From a virus: 27,238 bases of DNA. Made by a program: the position numbers and the translations under genes. A model generated the notes under the pieces. That model was not told the origin of the DNA. It saw only the letters and a list, made by a program, of their open reading frames with translations, and searched no databases. This document shows positions 4,041 through 26,330 of the stretch, one piece after another; the stretch's first letter is position 1; every line of letters begins with the position of its first letter. The stretch spans positions 1-27,238 of IMG/VR virus record IMGVR_UViG_3300038701_001736. One strand, given 5' to 3'.

Positions 4041-6566
4041 CTACCTTAGACCAAGAGCGGAAAGACGAAGGCCAGTTGCCTCCATGTCTTCCTGTTGACG
4101 GCGAGCGGCTTGTGCTTCTCGCTCCATTTCATTCGGGTCTATCTCGTCAGGGCCAAGACCAATCATAGTCGCGACCAAGTAACGAGCGCGGTAACTATTT
4201 GGATCAGAACGCGCTAGCTCTCGAATGTACTGAACATTGTCTGGATTTGCAAATGCTCTGCCAATCTGCTCATAAGAAGCCTGAGTCTGAAAGCGGTGTT
4301 GAGCGCGAGAAACGCTACCAAGGCCACCGGCCAGATTTTGAAGGCCACCAGCTACACTTCGGCTGCGGCCCAGTTCTTCCGGGTTTGCAGATGTGCGGCT
4401 TGACCCACGGGCGGTTGTAGAGCGCATAACCCGCATGGCATTGCGAAACGCATCGAAGCGAACCCCCTCAGCCATTCCGGTGCCCTCATCCAGAGCGTTC
4501 ATCATCGTTCGGATTGCCGGGCCATCATTCGCAATGAGCGCAGTGTAAGCAGCTTGGCCAATATTGTTGACCTGTGCAGGGTTCGACGCGCGACGAACAA
4601 CCCTGTCCACGCGGCTTTGAATAAAAGCGTTCATGGCGTCTTCGGCAAGCTGAGGGTTCTCAGCGGCGATAATACGGAACCCACGGCGGAACCTTGGAAG
4701 GTTTGCCGTTTCAGACTGCCGACCAATAGTGTCCAGTACGTTTTGAGCGTCGCGGCGCGCTTGCGGGTCACTGATGCGGTTGAGCGTTTCCTGCACCGGG
4801 TCAACAAGCCTCTCGCTCATGCGGCGCGTGGCTGCCCTGGCGCGGCCAAGCTGTTGGTAGTTATTAGCAATCTCACCAGCAACCTCTTGACGAAGGCTGC
4901 CGAAAAGCCCGCTCCACTCAGGGCGTTGAGCGCGGCCTGTAGAGTTCGGCGTTGTAGCAGCATTGATCGCCCGATTGGTTTCACGCTCCCAGTCGTAAAG
5001 CTGACCAGCCGTGCTGATTAGGGGGCGCGTCTCAACGGCTTGTTCTAGCGCTTTAATTTCTTCTGGCGTGATGCGCGACCAATCATCACCCGCCGCCTCT
5101 AGCGCACGGCGCAGATCGTCCGGCTCCCCAGCTTCCGGCATTCGCAATTGAGCGCGAAGACGCAGGGCCATATTTCTGTCAGCCTGCACGTTGGCGTTGC
5201 TCGCAATATCCTCAAGTCGCTGGTCAAGATCGCGAACAAATCGGTCCCCGCTTTCACCAAGCGGCTGCTGCGCGCCCGCTTCAAACTCTGGACGCAATCT
5301 CTCACGAATAGCCGCGCGCCTGCGGGCAACAATATTGCCACCGACACGCTGCAAATCCGCGCCCACGTCACTGGACCGTACGGGTCCGGCTAGTCGATTG
5401 AGCGCATCGCCCACGCTTCCCGTAATCGGATCACCGGCAAAATCAGGCTCAACAATTCGGCCCGCCTCCATCCCGCGCATGGGTCGCCCGCCGACGCCTT
5501 GGCGGCGAACAAGCTGAGCCAGCGCCCGGAACTCACCAACATCAACGCCAAGCTCGTCAGCCGCCTCAATAATAGCCTCATCCGCACCAATCGTTATGCC
5601 CATGCCCCGGCTGCGCTGTGCGATTTCGTCGGCCCGCTGATACACTTCGTCAGGGATAGTCTGCACGTTGCTACGAATGGCCTGACGCGCGTTTGTGTTC
5701 GACATCAGGGTTCGGCCAGCGGCAAGGCCGGAAATCAAACCGGCGATGGCGGGCGCTCCTGGAATCAAATTTATCTGATCCGACTCCATTACGGCTTGCG
5801 AGCCGGTAGCGGCGGCAGCGCCCGTGCCGACCTCCTCTGCAATTTCTCGGCCCAAGTTTGCGGTCGAACCGCGCTGAGTGGCGCGCGGCAACATTCGGTC
5901 GCCAGCCATTCCAGCAAGGCGGGACGCGCCTTTGCGACCAACGCCATAAACGGCGCCCTGAGATGCGACCTCGCCAATGACATTAGCAAAGCGGCCCGGC
6001 ATGGTGGACGGTCGGTATGGATCTTCTGCCAAAACGCCAGCGCCCCGCAGTCGAGAGATTGTCTCGTCTCGCGTCTCAAACGGGTCGTTATAGTCGCCGC
6101 TGTAAAGCCCGTCCTCGTAATAAAATGGATTGACGCGGCCAATGAGGTTGAGAGGTTGCGTGGCCAAATTCGGGATAGTGTTCAGGCCGACCCATGCGCC
6201 AGACGCGCCAGAACGCAAAGTGTCTTCGCCCGTCTCCATCGCGCGCCGCATTCCAGCTTGCGACTCCGGCACCATCTCATATGTTCCAGACTGCGGATCA
6301 TAAACCTGTTCATAGGGCTCGAACGCCGAATACTGAGGTATCTCGGAGTTTGGAATATAAGGGTCTTCCATTTGCTCTGGAGGCACGCCTTGGTCGCCAG
6401 CCGGTGTCGTCACGCGGCGAGCGCCTTGCGTCACCCAATCAGGGACAGATGGGCGCTCTTGCGCTTCTACAGCGTCACTCTCGACACGACGCGCACCCTG
6501 CGTCACCCAGTCAGGGGCTTCCTGAGAGGCTTTGCTGCGCGATGCTTTTCTCTTGGGAGCCCTCAT
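4041..6566 (-). CDS. Large internal virion / DNA-ejection protein (841 aa)
   Basis: This is a large, mostly helical, Ala/Arg/Glu-rich protein in the slot where P22-type phages carry their largest ejection protein, immediately before the tail fiber. The N terminus is basic (MRAPKRKASRSK), followed by two copies of PDWVTQGARRV (about residues 18-28 and 42-52). A Gly/Ala-rich hydrophobic segment sits near residues 245-295 (GTGAAAATGSQAVMESD; LIPGAPAIAGLISGLAAGRT) and could contact the membrane during ejection. The remainder looks like long amphipathic helices. No lytic transglycosylase motif is visible. The assignment rests on size, composition and gene order, not a recognised domain. Confidence 0.6.
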   Translation of the reverse strand: MRAPKRKASRSKASQEAPDWVTQGARRVESDAVEAQERPSVPDWVTQGARRVTTPAGDQGVPPEQMEDPYIPNSEIPQYSAFEPYEQVYDPQSGTYEMVPESQAGMRRAMETGEDTLRSGASGAWVGLNTIPNLATQPLNLIGRVNPFYYEDGLYSGDYNDPFETRDETISRLRGAGVLAEDPYRPSTMPGRFANVIGEVASQGAVYGVGRKGASRLAGMAGDRMLPRATQRGSTANLGREIAEEVGTGAAAATGSQAVMESDQINLIPGAPAIAGLISGLAAGRTLMSNTNARQAIRSNVQTIPDEVYQRADEIAQRSRGMGITIGADEAIIEAADELGVDVGEFRALAQLVRRQGVGGRPMRGMEAGRIVEPDFAGDPITGSVGDALNRLAGPVRSSDVGADLQRVGGNIVARRRAAIRERLRPEFEAGAQQPLGESGDRFVRDLDQRLEDIASNANVQADRNMALRLRAQLRMPEAGEPDDLRRALEAAGDDWSRITPEEIKALEQAVETRPLISTAGQLYDWERETNRAINAATTPNSTGRAQRPEWSGLFGSLRQEVAGEIANNYQQLGRARAATRRMSERLVDPVQETLNRISDPQARRDAQNVLDTIGRQSETANLPRFRRGFRIIAAENPQLAEDAMNAFIQSRVDRVVRRASNPAQVNNIGQAAYTALIANDGPAIRTMMNALDEGTGMAEGVRFDAFRNAMRVMRSTTARGSSRTSANPEELGRSRSVAGGLQNLAGGLGSVSRAQHRFQTQASYEQIGRAFANPDNVQYIRELARSDPNSYRARYLVATMIGLGPDEIDPNEMEREAQAARRQQEDMEATGLRLSALGLR

Positions 6567-8182: not shown

Positions 8183-9196
8183 CTATTTCTTTCCGCCGTT
8201 CTTTCCGCCGCCAAAGATTCCATTCAGACCGCCGCCGCCAATCCAGTTAGCGATGCCGCCGCCGATTGATCCAATAGTATTCGCGCCGATAGCGCCCTGC
8301 GTGAGGTAGGAAGAAGCGCGAGCGTCGCCCGCCCCGGAAATCAGCCCCGAGATATTGTTGGCCGTGTTCGAGCCGAGGCTTGCAGCAGTGCCGGTCGCGG
8401 TCTGCCCCATCCCCGCCAGCGAAGCCAGCCGGTTGAAGTAGTTCCCGTAGGTCTGATCAGCCAGCCCCTGCCCGTACTCTTGCAGTCGAGCCAAGGTGGA
8501 GCCACGCAAAAGCCCGCCACGCGATGCCGCCGAATTGTCAATCGAGCGAAGTCCTTCCGTAAGCTGGAACTGATAGCCCGGCGTGTTTCGGAAGCGACCA
8601 TACGGGTCAGCCGGGTCTGCCGCATTCGGGTCCGTAACGCCCTGCGTGTCCTGGACTTGCACGTTGCCCTTGGCAGCGTTTTGGGCAAGAGAAGCACGCA
8701 CGCCGGGGGGAAGCCCCGCCGCATTACCGCCGCCGCCTTCAATCGTGTTCATCGGGCCACGGAGCTGGTACGCACCCATTGCCGCGTCGTTGCCATCGTT
8801 TGGCGCGCCGCCAGCCATTCCATATAGACCCTGCGCACCACTAAAAGCGGGCGAATACGCGCGAGCGCCCGGTTCCGCCCCAGTGCCGACGCCACCACCG
8901 GCCTGACCGCCAAAATTAAACCCGCCGCTTGAAGCAGGAAAGCTGACACCAGGTATGCCCGGCTGAGGCGAAAGACCAAGCTCAAACATCATTTGGCCAA
9001 TGGCCGTGTCGCCCGCCTGAATACGCGGACGCAGCATGTTCATGGTGTCGGTGAATTGTTCGCGCTGAACCTGCGCGGCCCTATCGGAAGCCTGCGCCTG
9101 AGTTTGAGCGGCGTTGCGTGCGGCACTGGAAGACGAGCGCCCCGCGACAACCGAACCTACCGCGCCAACACCCGCAGCTATGGCTGTAGCTACCAT
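8183..9196 (-). CDS. DNA transfer protein, P22 gp7-like class (337 aa)
   Basis: The protein begins with a Gly/Ala-rich hydrophobic segment (VATAIAAGVGAVGSVVAG, residues 2-19). A flexible Gly-rich middle follows, then the family hallmark near residues 200-260: TPGYQFQLTEGLRSIDNSAA, SRGGLLRGSTLARLQEYGQG and YGNYFNRLASLAGMGQTA. That hallmark is shared by small ejection proteins of many podoviruses. The C terminus is again Gly-rich and hydrophobic (GSIGGGIANWIGGGG) and ends in Gly-Lys. Such proteins leave the capsid with the DNA and help build the conduit across the envelope. AAGG lies 8 nt before the ATG, which overlaps the upstream stop by 1 nt (TGATG). Confidence 0.8.
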   Translation of the reverse strand: MVATAIAAGVGAVGSVVAGRSSSSAARNAAQTQAQASDRAAQVQREQFTDTMNMLRPRIQAGDTAIGQMMFELGLSPQPGIPGVSFPASSGGFNFGGQAGGGVGTGAEPGARAYSPAFSGAQGLYGMAGGAPNDGNDAAMGAYQLRGPMNTIEGGGGNAAGLPPGVRASLAQNAAKGNVQVQDTQGVTDPNAADPADPYGRFRNTPGYQFQLTEGLRSIDNSAASRGGLLRGSTLARLQEYGQGLADQTYGNYFNRLASLAGMGQTATGTAASLGSNTANNISGLISGAGDARASSYLTQGAIGANTIGSIGGGIANWIGGGGLNGIFGGGKNGGKK

Positions 9197-17577: not shown

Positions 17578-17827
17578 CTTCGTTTTCCTCAATTTCATCT
17601 ACTCGAATGTCGTCCCAAGTGGCTTCCTCAAGAAGCTCAAGCATCTGGATTGCGCTACGCTCCCAATGGAGGTCGTGGAGCGCCTCCGGGTTGGACAGGT
17701 TGCGGCCCATTGCCCATAGCTGCTCCTTGGCCATTTGCTCCCGGTACTCCCGGTACTTGCGGAGCTGGCTGAAAACCTCCTGCGTTAGCGGGCTGTCCCG
17801 CCATTCCTGATACATTTCCGAATTCAT
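17552..17827 (-). CDS. Small helical protein nested in the portal 3' end (91 aa)
   Basis: The first 173 nt lie in another frame of the portal gene. The protein is charged and helical: EWRDSPLTQEVFSQLRKYRE, then RNLSNPEALHDLHWERSAIQ, then an acidic tail (EIENEDDTESRTY-like). The 'W..SP.T.....L...RE' start resembles small unnamed phage proteins encoded near portals. A very strong AAGGAGAT ribosome site sits 5-6 nt before the ATG at 17827, which argues strongly that it is translated. Function unknown. Confidence 0.7.
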   Translation of the reverse strand: MNSEMYQEWRDSPLTQEVFSQLRKYREYREQMAKEQLWAMGRNLSNPEALHDLHWERSAIQMLELLEEATWDDIRVDEIEENEDDTESRTY

Positions 17828-19721
17828 TTATCATCTCCTTCAATGCGCTTAACTGGGCCATATACAATTCAAGCTGTCGGCCTTGCTCTTTCGATTCCGC
17901 ATTGGCCACGTTTTCAATAGCAGCGGTTTCCATTTCGAGGATTTCCGCTTGAGCTTTTTGGGCCGCGATAGCGATCCGGGCCTTGTCGTTTTCCAACTTG
18001 GCCATTTTGATAAGAGTTTCCGGGTTGGGCTGCGGCTCTTTTGGCATGAGCGATTCCGGGTCATCGATATTCGCTGCCGCCAAAACACGTTTGGTGGCTT
18101 CCATCGGATCAAGCTTGCCCTGGTCGGCCAGACTCATGATTAGCTCAGCCTTGGCCATAGCCGCGCCATTCGTGACCATTTCCGGGTCCGTAATAGGCAT
18201 TACGTCCATGTCGAGAGCAAAATCTTCCGGTGACAGAAAGTCTCTATCAAGTATTTGCTGGTATTTAGGGTATACAGACTCAATATTTTCGCCGTCTATT
18301 TTAAACAGAAGTCGCATTTCATGCTTGAGAGCGCGATGGATACGTTTATAAATAGCAACAAACTGCTTTGAACCCTGCTCCACCAGCGTCAAAATTGTGG
18401 TCGGGGCGAGATTTGTACTTGTTTCTCCCATCATTACGTCTTTGACTGACGAAATGTCCTGGGCAGCACTGATCATAAGGCTCAAGAGCTGAAATGTCGT
18501 TGGAGAAGGTCCGCCGAAGTCGAGGGGGACCAGCTCGTTCTTGATCGTCTCACCAAAGCTCTCCACAGGCTTCCACTCGCCTGGTTTGAAGCGGGCATCG
18601 CCTGCACGAAGTTTCAATCGCTTGCCAATGAAGCCTGATTTGGAGTTTTGCCAGTGGGCGGCGTCGTTAAGCTGGTTGATCGCCGTGTTGACCTCGGAAT
18701 TGAGCGGGCCGAGCAGCCAGCCAAAGCCAATGCCGTAAAATCCGCCGTCAGGATTGGGGATGAAATCGTATTTGATGTAGTATTGGCGCGGCTCAATCGG
18801 GCTACCAGCTTGATCGAATGCCACAGCGTCTTCCGGGAAGAAGTTGGCTACAACCCGCAAAGGGATGCCGCCATTTTTCGTCATTGTGATGATGTAGGGC
18901 TCTGGATAGCCGTCGCCGTCCATATCGTATCGGCAGTGGGCCTCAAGCAGCTCGACAGGCTCGGTTGACCCTTCTGGAACCAGCGCTTTGACGGCATCAG
19001 CGTCATAGAGGCCGGTCATGACACGCTCTGCCATTTGGAAGGGGTAAAGTTCGAACACCTCGGTTACTTGCGGCGCTTTTTTGAGGCTCTTGGCGTCCAT
19101 ATTGACGACCAGATCGCGGGCTGAGAGGTATTTTGAGTCCGGCCCGTTGTTCCACCAAAGTTTTCTGAACGCGCACCCCGAAATTGGCAGGTTATGCAAG
19201 AGCTGGTCAGTGTCCGTTTCCCAGCTTTCCATCTCTTCAAGAAGCTGCCAGCTCATAAACTCCGACACATTGCGGGCTCTATCGGCTTTTGCACCAGGGG
19301 GCACGGCATAAACCGGCTTACCGCCTTCGCCTTGCTGGTTTGGATCGACCAGTCCGCTATCATCACCAATAATTTTGGCCTTTACGATGTCGCGACCGGG
19401 GAAGATGCCGGGATAGGCGCGAGCCGCAAATTGAATTGAGGCCGTTGTGATCAGCGGGAAGATGACGTTCGAGCATCCATTGAACGGATAGCTTTTGTTC
19501 TTCTTCTTTTGGAGGGCCATTTCCATGCCCTTGTCGTAGGCATCGACCCAATCTTGTCGGCTGGCCTCGTCAATCTCATATTGTTCATGAGCGCGTCGGG
19601 TCGCCAGCATGATGGCGTTTTCGTCAACGACGCCTATCAGATTGCTTTCTTCAGCCAGCAGTTCAAGCGGCAAGATCTCCTCTTCCAGAGGCGCTTCATC
19701 GAAAACGGGGGCATCAACCAT
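17655..19721 (-). CDS. Portal protein, P22-like class (688 aa)
   Basis: Typical portal features are PFNGCSNVIFPLITTASIQF near residues 78-97, a wing-type domain, and the C-terminal half motif MMGETSTNLAPTTILTLVEQ followed by a long helix (FVAIYKRIHRALKHEMRLLF). A GFGWLLGPLNSEVNTAINQL helix (core/clip region) is also present. After about residue 560 there is an extended helical barrel (LIKMAKLENDKARIAIAAQK), and finally a Pro/Gly/Ala/Gln-rich tail of ~50 residues. The dodecameric portal forms the DNA entry channel and binds terminase. The start lies 2 nt after the TerL stop. The last 173 nt also encode the small nested gene, which may explain the low-complexity C terminus. Confidence 0.86.
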   Translation of the reverse strand: MVDAPVFDEAPLEEEILPLELLAEESNLIGVVDENAIMLATRRAHEQYEIDEASRQDWVDAYDKGMEMALQKKKNKSYPFNGCSNVIFPLITTASIQFAARAYPGIFPGRDIVKAKIIGDDSGLVDPNQQGEGGKPVYAVPPGAKADRARNVSEFMSWQLLEEMESWETDTDQLLHNLPISGCAFRKLWWNNGPDSKYLSARDLVVNMDAKSLKKAPQVTEVFELYPFQMAERVMTGLYDADAVKALVPEGSTEPVELLEAHCRYDMDGDGYPEPYIITMTKNGGIPLRVVANFFPEDAVAFDQAGSPIEPRQYYIKYDFIPNPDGGFYGIGFGWLLGPLNSEVNTAINQLNDAAHWQNSKSGFIGKRLKLRAGDARFKPGEWKPVESFGETIKNELVPLDFGGPSPTTFQLLSLMISAAQDISSVKDVMMGETSTNLAPTTILTLVEQGSKQFVAIYKRIHRALKHEMRLLFKIDGENIESVYPKYQQILDRDFLSPEDFALDMDVMPITDPEMVTNGAAMAKAELIMSLADQGKLDPMEATKRVLAAANIDDPESLMPKEPQPNPETLIKMAKLENDKARIAIAAQKAQAEILEMETAAIENVANAESKEQGRQLELYMAQLSALKEMINEFGNVSGMAGQPANAGGFQPAPQVPGVPGANGQGAAMGNGPQPVQPGGAPRPPLGA

Positions 19722-19723
19722 GT

Positions 19724-21181
19724 CTAATATCCTGTGTGTTCATCCCTGAAATCATTGCCGCCGCGTGAGCCACGCAAGGTCGCAAGGAAGTCATCTTCGT
19801 CAGCCATGTGCGGACTTTCATTGCCCGGCACAAGGAAAGTCAAGGCCAAAGCATCCGCCCAGTCAGGACTTTCAAGACCGCGCTTCTTCATATGGTCTTT
19901 CTTTTCCAAGAGCATTTTATTGCTATTTTGGTCAAAAGAATACTCCGGGCCGACAAGTTGAGCGCGAATCCTGTCGTCGTTTGGAATGTCGGCTGTTTCA
20001 AGCCAGGTCTTCATCTTGTCCCACAGCTCAATCCTGAGATTGTAATAGATGCGTGGGTTTGACGCTCTTCGGCCTGACGAGACGCTGATAGGTGAGTAAT
20101 CCAGCCGGGTTAGCATGTCGTATACGCCTGCACCGATACCAACGGAGTCGATGAAGCATTGACATCTTTCGCGCTCCAGGTGAGCCGCGATGATTTGTGT
20201 CAGGCTGACAAGGTCGCGTTCTTTATGGAACTCGTGCTTGATGATTTTTGGGCCTTTGCGCCAGACAAAGCAGCTCGCATCGTCACCGTATCGGGCCACA
20301 TCGACGCCCATGAGCAGCGGAAAGTCCTGATAATCGTCCTCATTGAGCTTTCGGTATTGCGCACCCTCGACAATGTCGGTCGGGATAAGCTGGGCAGTGG
20401 CTTGGCGTGGGAATTGCCCCAGCACGCGGACGCGAACATAATCGGAGTCCTCGCCGTAGTCTTCGACTAGTTCGTTGAGGTATTTGCGGTCAGCCATCTT
20501 GGCTGTTCGCGAGTCGATATTGCGATTGTCCCAGCGCTGCTTGAGCTTGTGGAAGGTGTCGTAGAAATAGCCCGACGTTCTTGTCGGGTTTCCAAAGGCC
20601 AGCCACATGGCTCCCGGCGTTGTCATGGCACCGGAGGCGACTTGCCAGATCACATCGGGGATGCCGCTAGCCTCGTCGAAGATCATGAAGGTGTATTTTT
20701 CGTGCTGCCCGGCGAAGGCTTCGGAGTTGTTTTCCGACCACGGGATTGCTGCCGTGTACCATGTCTCAGGGTCTTCGACGGCCCGAAAGCTTTCCTTTTC
20801 CCACTTGAACATGTCGCGATTGATGGACAGCTTGTGCCACTTGGCCAGCTCTCGCCAAGTCCGGTTTTTAAGCTGCCTCTCGGTGTTTGCCGTTACCGTG
20901 CCAAGGCAACCGGGTCTGGTGGACATGTAGAAAAGGGCAATCCAGGACACCAGCGCTGACTTACCGACACCGTGACCAGACGCCACAGACAATCGGACGG
21001 GTCCGCCATAACGCTCTTTGCGCTTGAGTTGCTTGCCGAGGTCCTTGAGAAATTCGCGCTGCCACTTGTCAGGCCCATCAAAGCCTTTCAAGTCGCCTTG
21101 CCCCCAATCAAATGCACCCAAGACATAGCGAAGTGGATCATACCGGCACGAGCCAAGGAACTCTGCAAGTTCAGCGCTCAT
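19724..21181 (-). CDS. terL: Terminase large subunit (485 aa)
   Basis: Both motor and nuclease domains are complete. The ATPase has Walker A SGHGVGKS at residues 68-75, Walker B FMIFDE at 165-170 and a coupling-type GNPTRTSG at 197-204. The RNase-H-like nuclease has its acidic triad region at GVDVARYGDD (D294), CFIDSVGIGAG (D345) and SPDWADALAL (D440/D443). The enzyme translocates DNA into procapsids and cuts concatemers. It overlaps the glycosyltransferase gene by 11 nt and is followed by portal after 2 nt. No small-subunit gene precedes it; the best candidate lies at 25851-26330. Confidence 0.93.
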   Translation of the reverse strand: MSAELAEFLGSCRYDPLRYVLGAFDWGQGDLKGFDGPDKWQREFLKDLGKQLKRKERYGGPVRLSVASGHGVGKSALVSWIALFYMSTRPGCLGTVTANTERQLKNRTWRELAKWHKLSINRDMFKWEKESFRAVEDPETWYTAAIPWSENNSEAFAGQHEKYTFMIFDEASGIPDVIWQVASGAMTTPGAMWLAFGNPTRTSGYFYDTFHKLKQRWDNRNIDSRTAKMADRKYLNELVEDYGEDSDYVRVRVLGQFPRQATAQLIPTDIVEGAQYRKLNEDDYQDFPLLMGVDVARYGDDASCFVWRKGPKIIKHEFHKERDLVSLTQIIAAHLERERCQCFIDSVGIGAGVYDMLTRLDYSPISVSSGRRASNPRIYYNLRIELWDKMKTWLETADIPNDDRIRAQLVGPEYSFDQNSNKMLLEKKDHMKKRGLESPDWADALALTFLVPGNESPHMADEDDFLATLRGSRGGNDFRDEHTGY

Positions 21182-21884
21182 TGCTTTGCTCTTCTTGCAG
21201 TTCGTTAAATATATGGTTTGCCATTATTTCGCGCATCGGCATCATGTTCCAATGATCGAGCGGAATGACTGTATCAATCCAGACGTCAATGTTATTGTTT
21301 TGACATAGCTGGCAGAAATAATAGTCTTCGCCATTGTATGACTTTTCTGCACCTGACGGACACGGTCCTATCTTGTAGTCAAAATAGGCTCTCACCTTGT
21401 CATTGCCAGTAGACTCATGGGTGTACCAGTCAACTTTGTCTTCAAGGCTTTCAAAGACGTGTCGTTTAATCCGCATGAATGCTGTTGCGCCATGCCCTGT
21501 GAGGAGCGGGTACTTACCGAGATGATTTTTTACGCTGTGTGTTTTGTGGTCGGGCTTGATGTGGGCGCAAAACTTGACCTTGCCGGTCGTGTCTCGGCGC
21601 TGGGGCGCTGCGGCAACCACATCGACATCATGGGACAGAAGTGCGTGGAAGGCTTCTGGTGTGAACCCGATATCATCGTCAATCCAGACGATCTCATCAG
21701 CACCCATCTTTAGCGCCTGGTGACAGAGTGCATTTCTGACGCGGGGTGTATTGGCGTGACCAACTGCATTGATCCAGTCAACGCGCAACTCATCGGAGTG
21801 CTGGCCGATCACACGAATGATGGAGTCCACAAAGGCAGGCGTTGGCGCTCTGGCCACAGGTGTCAATACGAACACATGCCGCAT
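21171..21884 (-). CDS. GT-A type glycosyltransferase (237 aa)
   Basis: The N-terminal part has ANTPRVRNALCHQALKMGAD followed by the nucleotide-sugar/metal motif VWIDDDIGFTP (D69-D71). Downstream are a GHGATAFMRIKRHVFESL segment and NGEDYYFCQLCQNNNIDVWI with a late His (PLDHWNMM), the order expected of GT2-like phage glycosyltransferases. The acceptor is unknown: virion protein, DNA base or host surface glycan are possible. The ATG at 21884 is preferred over one four codons upstream because it has GGAG 6 nt away. It is the first gene of the leftward late operon, ahead of terL, where a small terminase gene would often be found. Confidence 0.8.
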   Translation of the reverse strand: MRHVFVLTPVARAPTPAFVDSIIRVIGQHSDELRVDWINAVGHANTPRVRNALCHQALKMGADEIVWIDDDIGFTPEAFHALLSHDVDVVAAAPQRRDTTGKVKFCAHIKPDHKTHSVKNHLGKYPLLTGHGATAFMRIKRHVFESLEDKVDWYTHESTGNDKVRAYFDYKIGPCPSGAEKSYNGEDYYFCQLCQNNNIDVWIDTVIPLDHWNMMPMREIMANHIFNELQEEQSNER

Positions 21885-21916
21885 CGCTATCTCCATTCAC
21901 TCAATCAATAGAACGC

Positions 21917-21945
21917 AAGCTAATCATAGTTTTCGTCTATGTCAA
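21917..21945 (-). promoter_or_regulatory. Candidate leftward late-operon promoter
   Basis: On the minus strand a perfect TTGACA (21945-21940) is followed after 17 nt by TAGCTT (21922-21917), a weak -10 with three of six consensus bases. Transcription would start around 21910, giving a leader of about 25 nt before the glycosyltransferase ATG. A phage-specific late activator could compensate for the poor -10. Confidence 0.35.
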
Positions 21946-22053
21946 ATACGGTCTCCAAGCCGACTCCCATATAAATCATCCAATCCAATCAACCCTCTAG
22001 CCCTCACCACCCGACAATCCCTCTTGACAGAGATTATGACTACTCCCCCTATA

Positions 22054-22091
22054 ACCCCCTCGGGTTCCAGCGTAAGCGAACACGAGAGGGT
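22054..22091. repeat. Imperfect inverted repeat / large hairpin
   Basis: ACCCCCTCG (22054-22062) pairs with CGAGAGGGT (22083-22091) with one mismatch. Inside, GTTC pairs with GAAC and a GC pair closes a GTAA loop. On the plus strand a T-rich stretch (ending ATTTTTTTC at about 22111-22121) follows only after ~20 nt and a second AT hairpin (TTGAAA-TTAT-TTTCAA), so a terminator is possible but not classical. An operator is the alternative. Confidence 0.5.
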
Positions 22092-22196
22092 GCTTGAAAT
22101 TATTTTCAATATATTTTTTTCACCGACCCACAAAACATTTACCGACAACAGAAGCTGCCAGGAAAAAAGGGACCCGCCAGATTGAGCGGTTTCCAA

Positions 22197-22224
22197 ACAT
22201 CGATTGGCAGACATCGATTGGCAG
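22197..22224. repeat. Tandem 14-bp direct repeat (two copies)
   Basis: The unit ACATCGATTGGCAG occurs twice head to tail without a gap, and the next three bases (ACA) begin a third copy. The unit contains ATCGAT. It lies in non-coding DNA at the edge of the G-rich tract and could be an iteron-like protein-binding site or a replication slippage product. Confidence 0.85.
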
Positions 22225-22225
22225 A

Positions 22226-22440
22226 CAGAGAGGGGAGAGGTCTCCAACCACCCCTACCACTGAACACCAGACAGACACCGGGGCAGGCGGAAGGGGACCC
22301 AGAGCGGGGGGCGAGGCGAGAGCGGCTGATAGCTTGACCAGGGCGGGGACAGGAGAGGCGAGAGGCGACGGGATGGGGCGCGGACAGGGCGGGACGGGAA
22401 GGCGTTGTAAGGTGGGCGAGAGGCAAGGTATGGGCATCTT
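22226..22440 (+). other. G-rich, purine-skewed non-coding tract
   Basis: The plus strand carries many runs of three to six G in a short distance with few C runs, for example around 22281-22312. At 22370-22398, GGG, GGGG, GGG, GGG and GGG are separated by 2, 8, 1 and 2 nt. One loop of 8 nt is just outside the strict quadruplex rule. The strand bias differs sharply from all surrounding sequence. Confidence 0.7.
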
Positions 22441-22586
22441 CCCCAAACACCACACATTCTACTAACCCGTCACTGCACTCCAGACATCGCTAGATATACC
22501 TGGCGATTACGGTTTGCGCTCCTCTATCCTGTCTTTGCATTGCCTTGTGTTTCGTTGTCTCGATTCCGTTGCATCCGGCGATTCTT

Positions 22587-22626
22587 ATTAACTGACCGGT
22601 TAATTGAAGGGTGACAGGATTTGTCA
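22587..22626. promoter_or_regulatory. Two adjacent inverted repeats, putative operators
   Basis: ATTAAC-N6-GTTAAT (22587-22604) with a central ACCGGT, and TGACA-N5-TGTCA (22612-22626), lie 7 nt apart. Their palindromic form and position about 100 nt upstream of the rightward promoter candidate suggest repressor or activator sites. HTH proteins encoded at 25609-25854 and 26627-26863 are possible binders. Confidence 0.45.
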
Positions 22627-22653
22627 TCCAGGCTCATTCTATGTGTTTCCCTT

Positions 22654-22722
22654 TATCTATAGATATTTTCCATACCCTTTCTCGTCTGCCCGTTATTGCC
22701 TTGTTAGGGTTTGGTCTATAGA
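22654..22722. repeat. Paired TCTATAGA palindromes
   Basis: A perfect 12-bp palindrome TATCTATAGATA spans 22654-22665. The core TCTATAGA recurs at 22715-22722, where it overlaps the candidate -10 box of the rightward promoter. Both copies continue with AT, so TCTATAGAT is shared. Two copies about 60 bp apart suggest two promoters or paired operator sites. Confidence 0.5.
22696..22722 (+). promoter_or_regulatory. Candidate promoter for the rightward cassette block
   Basis: TTGCCT (22696-22701) is followed after 15 nt by TATAGA (22717-22722). The spacing is short. Transcription would begin near 22730, just before the first hairpin of element copy 1, which would explain why that copy lacks the large upstream hairpin found in copies 2, 4, 5 and 6. 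Confidence 0.35.
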
Positions 22723-22732
22723 TTGAACGCTA

Positions 22733-22766
22733 ATAGGGAACACCCTATCAACGGTAAAGGAAACCG
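22733..22766 (+). promoter_or_regulatory. Start-associated hairpin element, copy 1 (hairpins B and C)
   Basis: Hairpin B is ATAGGG-AACA-CCCTAT (22733-22748). Hairpin C is CGGT-AAAGGAA-ACCG (22752-22766), with the Shine-Dalgarno in its loop and AAC between stem and ATG. It heads the first cassette. No hairpin A is seen; the transcript probably starts here. Confidence 0.7.
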
Positions 22767-22769
22767 AAC

Positions 22770-22970
22770 ATGAAAATCCAATTGACCGATTACAAGCCGG
22801 GCGGCGTTTCAACCTTCATGATCCGCTCTGGGCCTATGACGATGTGGTTTGAGCTGGAAAGCGAGACTGGGAAGCCTGCCAGCGTCATGCCGCTTGTAGA
22901 ACCCTACGCCACAAAGGCCCAAACCGAGGGCCGCATCCTTCTGAGCCAGCGCAATCGTCACAAGGGGTGA
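22770..22970 (+). CDS. Small protein of unknown function (66 aa)
   Basis: No family is recognised. The sequence opens MKIQLTDYKPGGVSTFMIRS and continues with a short strand pair (GPMTMWFELESETGKPA) and a polar, basic C terminus (GRILLSQRNRHKG). There is no signal peptide or TM helix. The ATG is fixed by the AAAGGAA ribosome site presented in the loop of a mini-hairpin, 3 nt from the stem. It is the first gene of the plus-strand block and the only gene of its cassette. Confidence 0.7.
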   Translation: MKIQLTDYKPGGVSTFMIRSGPMTMWFELESETGKPASVMPLVEPYATKAQTEGRILLSQRNRHKG

Positions 22971-22980
22971 CGCCCGGTGT

Positions 22981-23050
22981 CCTGTCCGGCCAGTCTGGAC
23001 AGGCATCCCGGCACCATGCCGAAACGTTCTATCCACGGTAAAGGAAACCG
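22981..23050 (+). promoter_or_regulatory. Start-associated hairpin element, copy 2 (hairpins A, B, C)
   Basis: Hairpin A is CCTGTCC / GGACAGG (22981-22987 with 22997-23003) around loop GGCCAGTCT. The linker is CATCC. Hairpin B is CGGCA-CCA-TGCCG (23009-23021). After 14 nt comes hairpin C, CGGT-AAAGGAA-ACCG (23036-23050), then AAC-ATG. It fills nearly the whole gap after the preceding stop. The bases from the hairpin C stem through the ATG are identical to copy 1. Confidence 0.75.
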
Positions 23051-23053
23051 AAC

Positions 23054-23308
23054 ATGCTTAACCTCTTCAAAATCGCCCGCCATATCCGCGCACACTCTCT
23101 CGAGTGTGATGCTTATGCGCTTGACCATCGCGCCAAAGAATACACGCTCACGGCCAAGCGTCGCCGCTATGACGCTATGACGTATTCGACCGGCACCGCT
23201 TCCCCAACATGGGCTTATGCCGCGCAACTGGATGGCGTAGCTAACAAGCTCTCACGCGCTGCAAATGGCCGCCGCCGCATGGCCGCCGTTCTGCGCTCAG
23301 CACGCTAA
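23054..23308 (+). CDS. Small Arg-rich protein of unknown function (84 aa)
   Basis: No family is recognised. The protein is strongly basic and Ala/Arg-rich, opening MLNLFKIARHIRAHS and ending ANGRRRMAAVLRSAR, with a central polar stretch (KEYTLTAKRRRYDAMTYSTG). Basic, helical composition suggests nucleic-acid contact, but this is only inference. The start is defined by element copy 2. The stop is followed 10 nt later by the start of a 28-codon gene. Confidence 0.68.
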   Translation: MLNLFKIARHIRAHSLECDAYALDHRAKEYTLTAKRRRYDAMTYSTGTASPTWAYAAQLDGVANKLSRAANGRRRMAAVLRSAR

Positions 23309-24721: not shown

Positions 24722-25138
24722 ATGTTTACCCAAAAATTCGACATATTCGCTTGTGAGGGCGACTCAATTGAATGCGAGCGCGAAGGCTTCACCGTTATTG
24801 CTCGCATCGAGCGGGATTGCGATTATCACATTGACCATGATGACGGCCATAACCCAAACCAGAGCGTTACCGGATGCGACGACGCGCAACAGGCCAAGCT
24901 ATTGGAAGCGCGCCAGTTGTGGCTCGAAAACGAGTGGTTTTATTGCGGCATTGTGCTGGACGTCTATTTTAATGACATCCCGGTCAGCGAAAACGCTGCG
25001 AGCCTTTGGGGTATCGAGTGCAACTATCCCGGCGCCGACAATTCATATCTGCAAACTGAGGCCAATGAATTGTTGGAAGAGGCAATCGAAGACGCCAAGG
25101 GGCAGCGCGCTCGCATCATTGAGGCGTTGAGCGCATGA
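24722..25138 (+). CDS. Conserved phage-type acidic protein (138 aa)
   Basis: The middle and C-terminal parts (WLENEWFYCGIVLDVYFNDI; ENAASLWGIECNYPGADNSY; NELLEEAIEDAKGQ) match a pattern I recall from small phage proteins of unknown function: 'W.y.GivV.v......aSLWGIE.....YL.e.aneL..eA'. The N-terminal part (FACEGDSIECEREGFTVIAR) is a beta strand pair. The protein is strongly acidic. No catalytic motif is seen. Start hairpin copy 5 sets the ATG, and the TGA overlaps the next ATG by 4 nt. Confidence 0.7.
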   Translation: MFTQKFDIFACEGDSIECEREGFTVIARIERDCDYHIDHDDGHNPNQSVTGCDDAQQAKLLEARQLWLENEWFYCGIVLDVYFNDIPVSENAASLWGIECNYPGADNSYLQTEANELLEEAIEDAKGQRARIIEALSA

Positions 25139-25338: not shown

Positions 25339-25402
25339 GGCGCCGCAGACAATCGCGGCGCCCTTCCCGCTGGACTGGCCAGCTTAACGGAAAAGGAATC
25401 CG
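25339..25402 (+). promoter_or_regulatory. Start-associated hairpin element, copy 6 (hairpins A, B, C)
   Basis: Hairpin A is GGCGCCGC / GCGGCGCC (25339-25346 with 25355-25362) around loop AGACAATC. The linker is CTTCCC. Hairpin B is GCTGG-ACTGG-CCAGC (25369-25383). After TTAA comes hairpin C, CGGA-AAAGGAA-TCCG (25388-25402), then AAC-ATG at 25406. Hairpin C keeps the copy-1 loop but swaps the fourth base pair. Confidence 0.76.
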
Positions 25403-25405
25403 AAC

Positions 25406-25612
25406 ATGACAAAATATGTTTCGCAAGAATATATCGACGGCATATTAGAAGGCCGGGCCGCGCTTGAGCGAGACGGCATGGAATACGCGCGTGATCACTT
25501 GGACGTATGCGAAAGAACATGCCGAAAATTCGATGCGCAATCGCCAGTTGGGCAAATGCTGCGCGGCGAGCGTGACTTTTGGCGTAACCAAATCAAGAAA
25601 GCTAACAAATGA
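25406..25612 (+). CDS. Small helical protein of unknown function (68 aa)
   Basis: No family is recognised. The sequence is one or two helices with many charges (SQEYIDGILEGRAALERDGM; LDVCERTCRKFDAQSPVGQM; GERDFWRNQIKKANK). Cys residues at CERTC are spaced like a possible disulfide or metal pair. The ATG is set by start hairpin copy 6. Its TGA overlaps the next ATG by 4 nt, so it forms a two-gene unit with a probable DNA-binding protein. Confidence 0.66.
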   Translation: MTKYVSQEYIDGILEGRAALERDGMEYARDHLDVCERTCRKFDAQSPVGQMLRGERDFWRNQIKKANK

Positions 25613-25854
25613 CGCGCAAGTCAATCACTCGGCGTGAGTTCGGACAATTTGCCGCTCCAATTCTTGACCCGCCCTGGCATCGCACGCTTGCAAGCCTGTC
25701 GGGATGGAATCCGCGCACACTCGAGCGACTAGGAACGCCTAAGATGCCGCTAGACGAAAGGCGCGCGATAAACCTTGCTGATTCACTAGACGCGGCGTGT
25801 GACTTTGACGCTGACAGAGTTGCGCAATGGTTGCGCGGGCAATTCGAGCCCTAA
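25609..25854 (+). CDS. Probable HTH DNA-binding protein (81 aa)
   Basis: The segment WHRTLASLSGWNPRTLERLG has the spacing of a short helix-turn-helix (recognition helix near NPRTLERL). It is followed by a downstream helix RRAINLADSLDAACDFDADR, as in small Cro/XRE-type regulators of alphaproteobacterial phages. It could regulate the cassette block or the neighbouring leftward operon. The 3' end overlaps the convergent terminase-like gene by 4 nt with no terminator between them. The assignment rests on pattern recognition only. Confidence 0.52.
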   Translation: MTRKSITRREFGQFAAPILDPPWHRTLASLSGWNPRTLERLGTPKMPLDERRAINLADSLDAACDFDADRVAQWLRGQFEP

Positions 25855-26330
25855 TCTTCCTCTGAAGACGCCTCGCCACGCTCAACCGCGCGCTCTATCG
25901 CATTCTTGAGGCTTCTAGACTGCCCAGCAATGGACGGGGCTTTTGCTTGGCTTGGCTTGGTCGCCATATTGGTCATTATCTCAATGTCGCGTTGCAAGCT
26001 ATGGATGATTACACGCGCCTCGCTTGGCGATAGTTCACCGCTTTGCACGCGGTCACGGATCTCGATTATTTCATCGGCGCATGACTCGGCGCGGAAACGA
26101 TAGGCCGCGTGAACTTTCGCGCTCCGGTCTTCGTCCAATCCGATATTGGTCATTATGGCTGTAATGCCCGGTGTATCCTGGCGTTTTGGATCAGCAAAGC
26201 TTTTGCGAGAGCCCCCGCTAACGATGTGGTCGATTAGGGCAGATGTCACACGGTCCCAATCCCAGCCGCTACCGTCTGGCAGCATCAGCGGTTCGCGATC
26301 TGCTACCGCTATCTTCTTTGGGCGTTTCAT
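25851..26330 (-). CDS. Probable small terminase subunit (159 aa)
   Basis: The layout resembles small terminases. There is an N-terminal HTH-like region (VTSALIDHIVSGGSRKSFAD, then PGITAIMTNIGLDED) and a helical core whose pattern, HAAYRFRAESCADEIIEIRD, matches the 'A.ARa..ad.yadEileIaD' helix of many phage TerS proteins. A second helix SEARVIIHSLQRDIEIMTNM and a charged flexible tail follow. TerS rings recognise the packaging site and load TerL. It lies 4.7 kb from terL, with plus-strand genes in between. The ATG at 26330 has only a weak SD and is preceded by a structured leader. An HTH regulator is the alternative. Confidence 0.58.
   Translation of the reverse strand: MKRPKKIAVADREPLMLPDGSGWDWDRVTSALIDHIVSGGSRKSFADPKRQDTPGITAIMTNIGLDEDRSAKVHAAYRFRAESCADEIIEIRDRVQSGELSPSEARVIIHSLQRDIEIMTNMATKPSQAKAPSIAGQSRSLKNAIERAVERGEASSEED

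Follow-up and report, generated by a model that had tools for sequence, protein, structure and literature searches.

What is the function of the long noncoding gap that separates two divergent gene blocks in this virus, and in particular of the perfect tandem repeat and the G-rich tract which lie inside it? The window, i.e., the whole stretch of 27,238 bases that was analyzed, is the virus record IMGVR_UViG_3300038701_001736 and represents a fragment. Open reading frames and family searches on both sides delimit a divergent noncoding region of 873 nt (21897–22769). The leftward block runs from 21896 to the left end of the window and holds the large terminase (TerL, 19724–21181), the portal protein (17655–19721), both on the minus strand and found by family search, as well as head and ejection proteins. 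The block is headed by a gene for 241 amino acids (21171–21896, minus strand) of the family phrog_1574 with unknown function, whose product gives a weak match to Anp1 (glycosyltransferase-like) under the Pfam cut-off. This glycosyltransferase-like gene stands directly before TerL in a slot that is taken by the small terminase in the phage locus L121. The rightward block starts at 22770 and is made up of small genes with mostly unknown function. Its first gene (22770–22970, plus strand) codes for 66 amino acids of unknown function and is 92% identical to a protein of the locus L042. The preliminary description had placed the feature in a control region, and this agrees with its location, with structural genes running leftward on one side and small genes running rightward on the other.

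Two further elements were noted among the early genes. A leader of 28 nt recurs at 22745–22772, 23029–23056, and 25381–25408, and each copy closes with the start codon of an early gene; searching with a 22-nt pattern that precedes the early genes gave no match. A hairpin-like element of about 60 nt follows early genes at 22963–23022 in the window and at 5194–5253, 6335–6390, and 6740–6799 in L042, which along with these three copies has a large terminase from another family than the window, as does L132. No relatives of the second early gene were found.

The repeat consists of two perfect 14-bp direct units ACATCGATTGGCAG at 22197–22210 and 22211–22224 on the plus strand, exactly as described before, and the match extends 3 nt past the second unit to 22227. 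With a TRF score of 62 the pair is the top of 11 rows and it is also the longest perfect tandem pair in the window, the runner-up having a unit of 12 (8187–8210). When the window was resampled 60 times with a first-order model, no perfect tandem pair with a unit of 12–39 ever arose. Additional copies of the unit are not enriched, as four places with at most three mismatches were found (two of them being the pair itself) versus 3.26 expected. When the exact repeat pattern was searched in IMG/VR the sole match was the contig IMGVR_UViG_3300032277_000211 (L003).

Downstream of the repeat lies a G-rich and purine-rich tract (22280–22429, plus strand) which is the extreme of the window. Its 150-nt G-run score (G4Hunter-type) is 1.16 (z 7.2) and does not exceed 0.43 elsewhere in the window, so that the composition is indeed unlike the rest; in 1000 first-order resamplings of the 873-nt gap this score was reached in a fraction of 0.001. 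Between 22225 and 22440 the plus strand has 97 G, 53 A, 48 C, and 18 T. The bias is strong over about 150 nt rather than over the more than 200 nt claimed earlier, the part 22244–22279 being C/A-rich. Five runs of three or more G are found at 22370–22398, a part which no relative covers. These runs had been called quadruplex-like; their loops of 2, 8, 1, and 2 nt fit only a relaxed motif with loops of up to 12 nt, and the canonical G3N1-7 pattern is missed because one loop has 8 nt. No canonical motif was found in the whole G-rich tract.

The preliminary description was silent on three elements to the left of the repeat. A C-rich tract, detected by the G-run score as a G-rich minus strand, extends over 21912–22061 and contains the strongest C-over-G bubble of the plus strand in the window (21984–22061) as well as a canonical G3N1-7 quadruplex motif on the minus strand (21993–22021); at least one such motif occurs in a fraction of 0.068 of the resampled gaps. 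The 40 nt with the highest AT content in the window fall at 22094–22141, about 60 nt from the 14-bp repeats, and include the palindrome TTGAAATTATTTTCAA (22094–22109). The strongest C-over-G bubble of the minus strand (22345–22422) is within the G-rich tract. The longest perfect tandem repeat, the AT-richest 40 nt and the strongest bubble of each strand all come together within 440 nt (21984–22422). In the T/C-rich right part of the gap there are two palindromes (22587–22604 and 22654–22665) which are possible operators.

The contig of L003 is the single close relative of the gap. It aligns with the window from the gene at 21896 to position 22348, where it ends inside the G-rich tract, with about 91% identity over 449–452 nt (41 substitutions, i.e., 9.1%, and no gaps in 452 nt); in comparison the third codon positions of the two neighboring genes diverge by 13.6% and 11.5%. 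Although open reading frames on both strands cross the tract, a coding function was rejected: in 22094–22348 the changes are distributed 11/5/11 over the codon positions in the frame of the plus-strand reading frame, without the third-position excess of the neighboring genes (8/4/33 in 21171–21896 and 5/4/56 in the other). The earlier statement that coding does not explain the composition is in line with this. Absence or randomization of the tract in close relatives, which had been named as an argument against it, is not seen in L003, where the tract is present and gapless with three of the five runs of three or more G in 22280–22348 kept and two lost. In the minus-strand motif all four G-runs are kept, the two changes being both in loops.

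In L003 the two 14-bp units differ from those of the window by an identical pair of changes, T to G and C to T. By our own arithmetic independent change would produce this with a chance of about 3e-4. We therefore infer that the units are being homogenized or re-duplicated and evolve in concert. This concerted change speaks for turnover and weakly for a function. It is also what can be put forward for a recombination hot spot as suggested before, nothing else being behind that proposal.

Does the region work as RNA or as DNA? A structured RNA or riboswitch was considered and rejected: Rfam gave no match at gathering scores but a single chance match (E 4.8), and the folds were no more stable than those of shuffled sequences on either strand (z +1.90 and +1.33; +0.81 for a longer stretch). 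The best promoter candidates are weak and are located toward either end of the gap, facing away from it, namely a predicted TTGACA-N17-TAGCTT on the minus strand for the leftward block (21917–21945) and two weak predicted sites on the plus strand with 8/12 matches each (22696 and 22723); a stricter promoter scan returned none in the gap. If these outward promoters are right, the tract would be in neither main transcript and would therefore work as DNA. Because of the outward candidates and the lack of excess folding a transcription block in the form of an RNA leader, as had been proposed, is disfavored and is weaker than the reading as a control region; an unlikely but conceivable form would be a Rho-type block of read-through.

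To the following explanation we give an even chance. The feature would form the center of a phage control region which acts as DNA and in which tandem protein-binding repeats are located beside a melting block, controlling divergent transcription and probably serving as replication origin. The core of the gap would lie between the two outward-pointing promoters. Most likely the 14-bp pair is a tandem site for a DNA-binding protein, and the AT-rich block next to it should melt easily. In the flanking C-rich and G-rich tracts each strand is so heavily biased that it presumably cannot fold back on itself. A regulator or replication initiator seated there could then open the helix. Altogether the region resembles an ordinary one for control or for the start of replication in a phage, with an unusually skewed base composition.

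For an origin, which was among the earlier proposals, the anatomy fits in that the AT-richest block of the window is near the direct repeats, as expected for the melting region of an iteron origin. However, DnaA boxes with up to one mismatch are absent from the gap, the repeat has only two perfect units and the GC skew over the window shows no lasting turn at the gap. We therefore did not file the region as an iteron origin. Scans with PHROGs and Pfam, which covered some of the rightward genes of this 27-kb fragment, named no initiator gene. If the gap is an origin, it would be a compact place for studying the start of replication in this phage group, whose gap matched none of the annotated records in the phage and plasmid collections searched.

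The gene at 24722–25138 has relatives in about 40 viral and 56 bacterial loci, which allowed comparing the equivalent gaps. Those of the L121 group match the gap of the window in place, with leftward terminase and head genes opposite a rightward operon containing the same gene family, and several members have a C-run tract followed by a G-run tract along with arrays of ACCCANTGGGT. The divergent gaps of this group (L116–L134) and of L130 contain palindromic ACCCANTGGGT boxes, and 91 of the 103 CCCANTGGG cores in 11 loci are inside the called gap; such an arrangement resembles an array of operators or of initiator sites. These box arrays, the two palindromes in the right part of the window's gap, and the divergent arrangement with its candidate outward promoters are what would be expected if the region controlled transcription only, the repeats and palindromes being operators for a repressor or activator, the base bias a by-product, and replication starting elsewhere. 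We regard this as possible but rather doubtful: the repeat is direct and lies about 250 nt away from the promoter candidate closer to it, and this reading offers no explanation for the tracts rich in G and in C. Concerted changes in the two repeat units, together with the differing box arrays that other phages have in this position, point to rapid turnover of protein-binding sites in the gap.

The tracts, repeats, and AT-rich blocks in the equivalent gaps of the other phages are unrelated to those of the window in sequence, and aligning the AT-rich blocks of the window and the L121-type gaps gave no firm homology. L050, L051, L052, L053, L132, and L058 have G-run tracts of their own in the gap before the operon. 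The gap of L042 has tandem repeats and no base bias. In L046, which carries the early gene's closest relative (80%), the called gap is free of strong tracts. A gap was called in 30 of 43 viral loci and in 35 of 56 genomic ones. Across the 22 clusters formed by these loci, run bias was not special in the divergent gaps that precede the gene family (mean placement fraction 0.44; at most 0.1 in 3 of the 22). Canonical motifs over called gaps numbered 5 in 21453 nt inside and 16 in 311066 nt outside. Of 60 loci, 29 had both a TerL match and a called gap; among these the mean placement fraction was 0.24, and 10 had a value of at most 0.1. We make no claim from this comparison, since these 10 are for the most part near relatives, a simple script did the gap calling, and the background was all DNA including coding sequence. 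The AT-richest 40 nt are inside the gap in 10 of 16 loci with one tie, the gaps having been set partly by hand with some tracts already known by then. A general rule of strand-biased tracts is unsupported, as some phages lack tracts and the strand order varies. The likeness between the gaps is one of kind; it is limited to some of the loci sampled and came to light in part because it was being looked for.

This comparison also bears on the Rho-type block, in which the region would be an insulator whose C-rich strands are loading sites that halt read-through from either side before the core. It fits the window well, with the strongest C-over-G bubble of each strand located here and facing inward and with RNA of the C-rich strands folding no better than chance. 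It does not fit the other phages: the order plus-left and minus-right is seen in only 10 of 21 loci with likewise partly hand-set gaps, which is no better than a coin toss. We consider an insulator unlikely.

Packaging initiation had been proposed, too. A pac or cos site with repeats bound by the terminase would be well placed next to the TerL block, the small terminase gene of L121 is the first leftward gene next to the gap with the large terminase and portal genes also leftward of it, and the contig of L003 ends inside the tract (window 22348). Such a contig end in a G-rich stretch may as well be an assembly break, and the window's own contig continues through the site. The only candidate for a small terminase (25851–26330, minus strand) is Sf6-type with 23.2 bits against a Pfam cut-off of 27 and is located in the early region, off from TerL and 3.4 kb from the feature. 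Packaging is thereby weakly disfavored and, being weaker than the reading as a control region, appears quite improbable to us.

We give still less credence, namely very little, to a transcription-linked quadruplex or R-loop switch resembling the mitochondrial CSB 2 G-tract. The G4Hunter-type score of 1.76 over 22370–22394 and the retention of the canonical minus-strand motif in L003 argue for it. The tract, however, is without a canonical motif, two of the five G-runs in its shared part are lost in L003, and no promoter was found that is placed to transcribe it. It is similarly improbable in our view that phages with this early gene family, those of marine alphaproteobacteria and others, repeatedly evolve a strand-biased tract of G- or C-runs and changing short repeats between the head block and the early block for opening the helix to start replication. 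The tract sequences would then lack common descent, and the helix would be opened by a quadruplex, an R-loop, or an initiator on unfolded single strands.

In the bacterial loci a different element came to light. Genomes of the Hyphomonadaceae and Parvularcula type have a candidate for a long and conserved hairpin RNA upstream of the operon with the 24722 gene family, which is absent from the window. In L060 (7200–7420) the fold has a z of −6.92. Nine loci were aligned (L060 7218–7400; L101 7200–7385; L102 7210–7390; L099 7210–7390; L083 7000–7185; L085 7005–7180; L064 7030–7210; L104 7190–7395; L110 2290–2470), and in these rows, picked by eye from 12 stretches of which two began mid-hairpin and one near-duplicate was dropped, 17 of 45 pairs have two-sided changes and 94.3% of the cells are paired. 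None of 500 shuffles reached these values on any measure, and sliding the alignment gave no more than five two-sided pairs. One side of the loop has an invariant TCxTACCT-like sequence. A search of five loci in Rfam gave no match at gathering score.

How does the window compare with known systems? The lambda ori, an iteron-type phage origin, has four iterons beside an AT-rich block with strand bias and is located inside the initiator gene. The window shares the neighborhood of direct repeats and an AT-rich block as well as the strand bias. It differs in having two 14-bp units in place of four longer iterons, in the position of the repeats outside any initiator gene, and in a gap without DnaA box.

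For a G-run tract in a control region hybrid quadruplexes have been reported to end transcription and to influence replication. The window also has a G-run tract in a control region, but its motif is noncanonical and a transcript across the tract is only hypothetical. In PMC4227801 the word "phage" is found once, in the reference list, and literature searches on quadruplexes or repeats in phage control regions brought up nothing on phage among the titles listed. In the L121 group and L130 the ACCCANTGGGT box is palindromic and dispersed and has no homology to the direct repeat of the window; the window is nevertheless like them in place, in gene family, in its AT-rich block and, as far as several members are concerned, in a C-run tract followed by a G-run tract.
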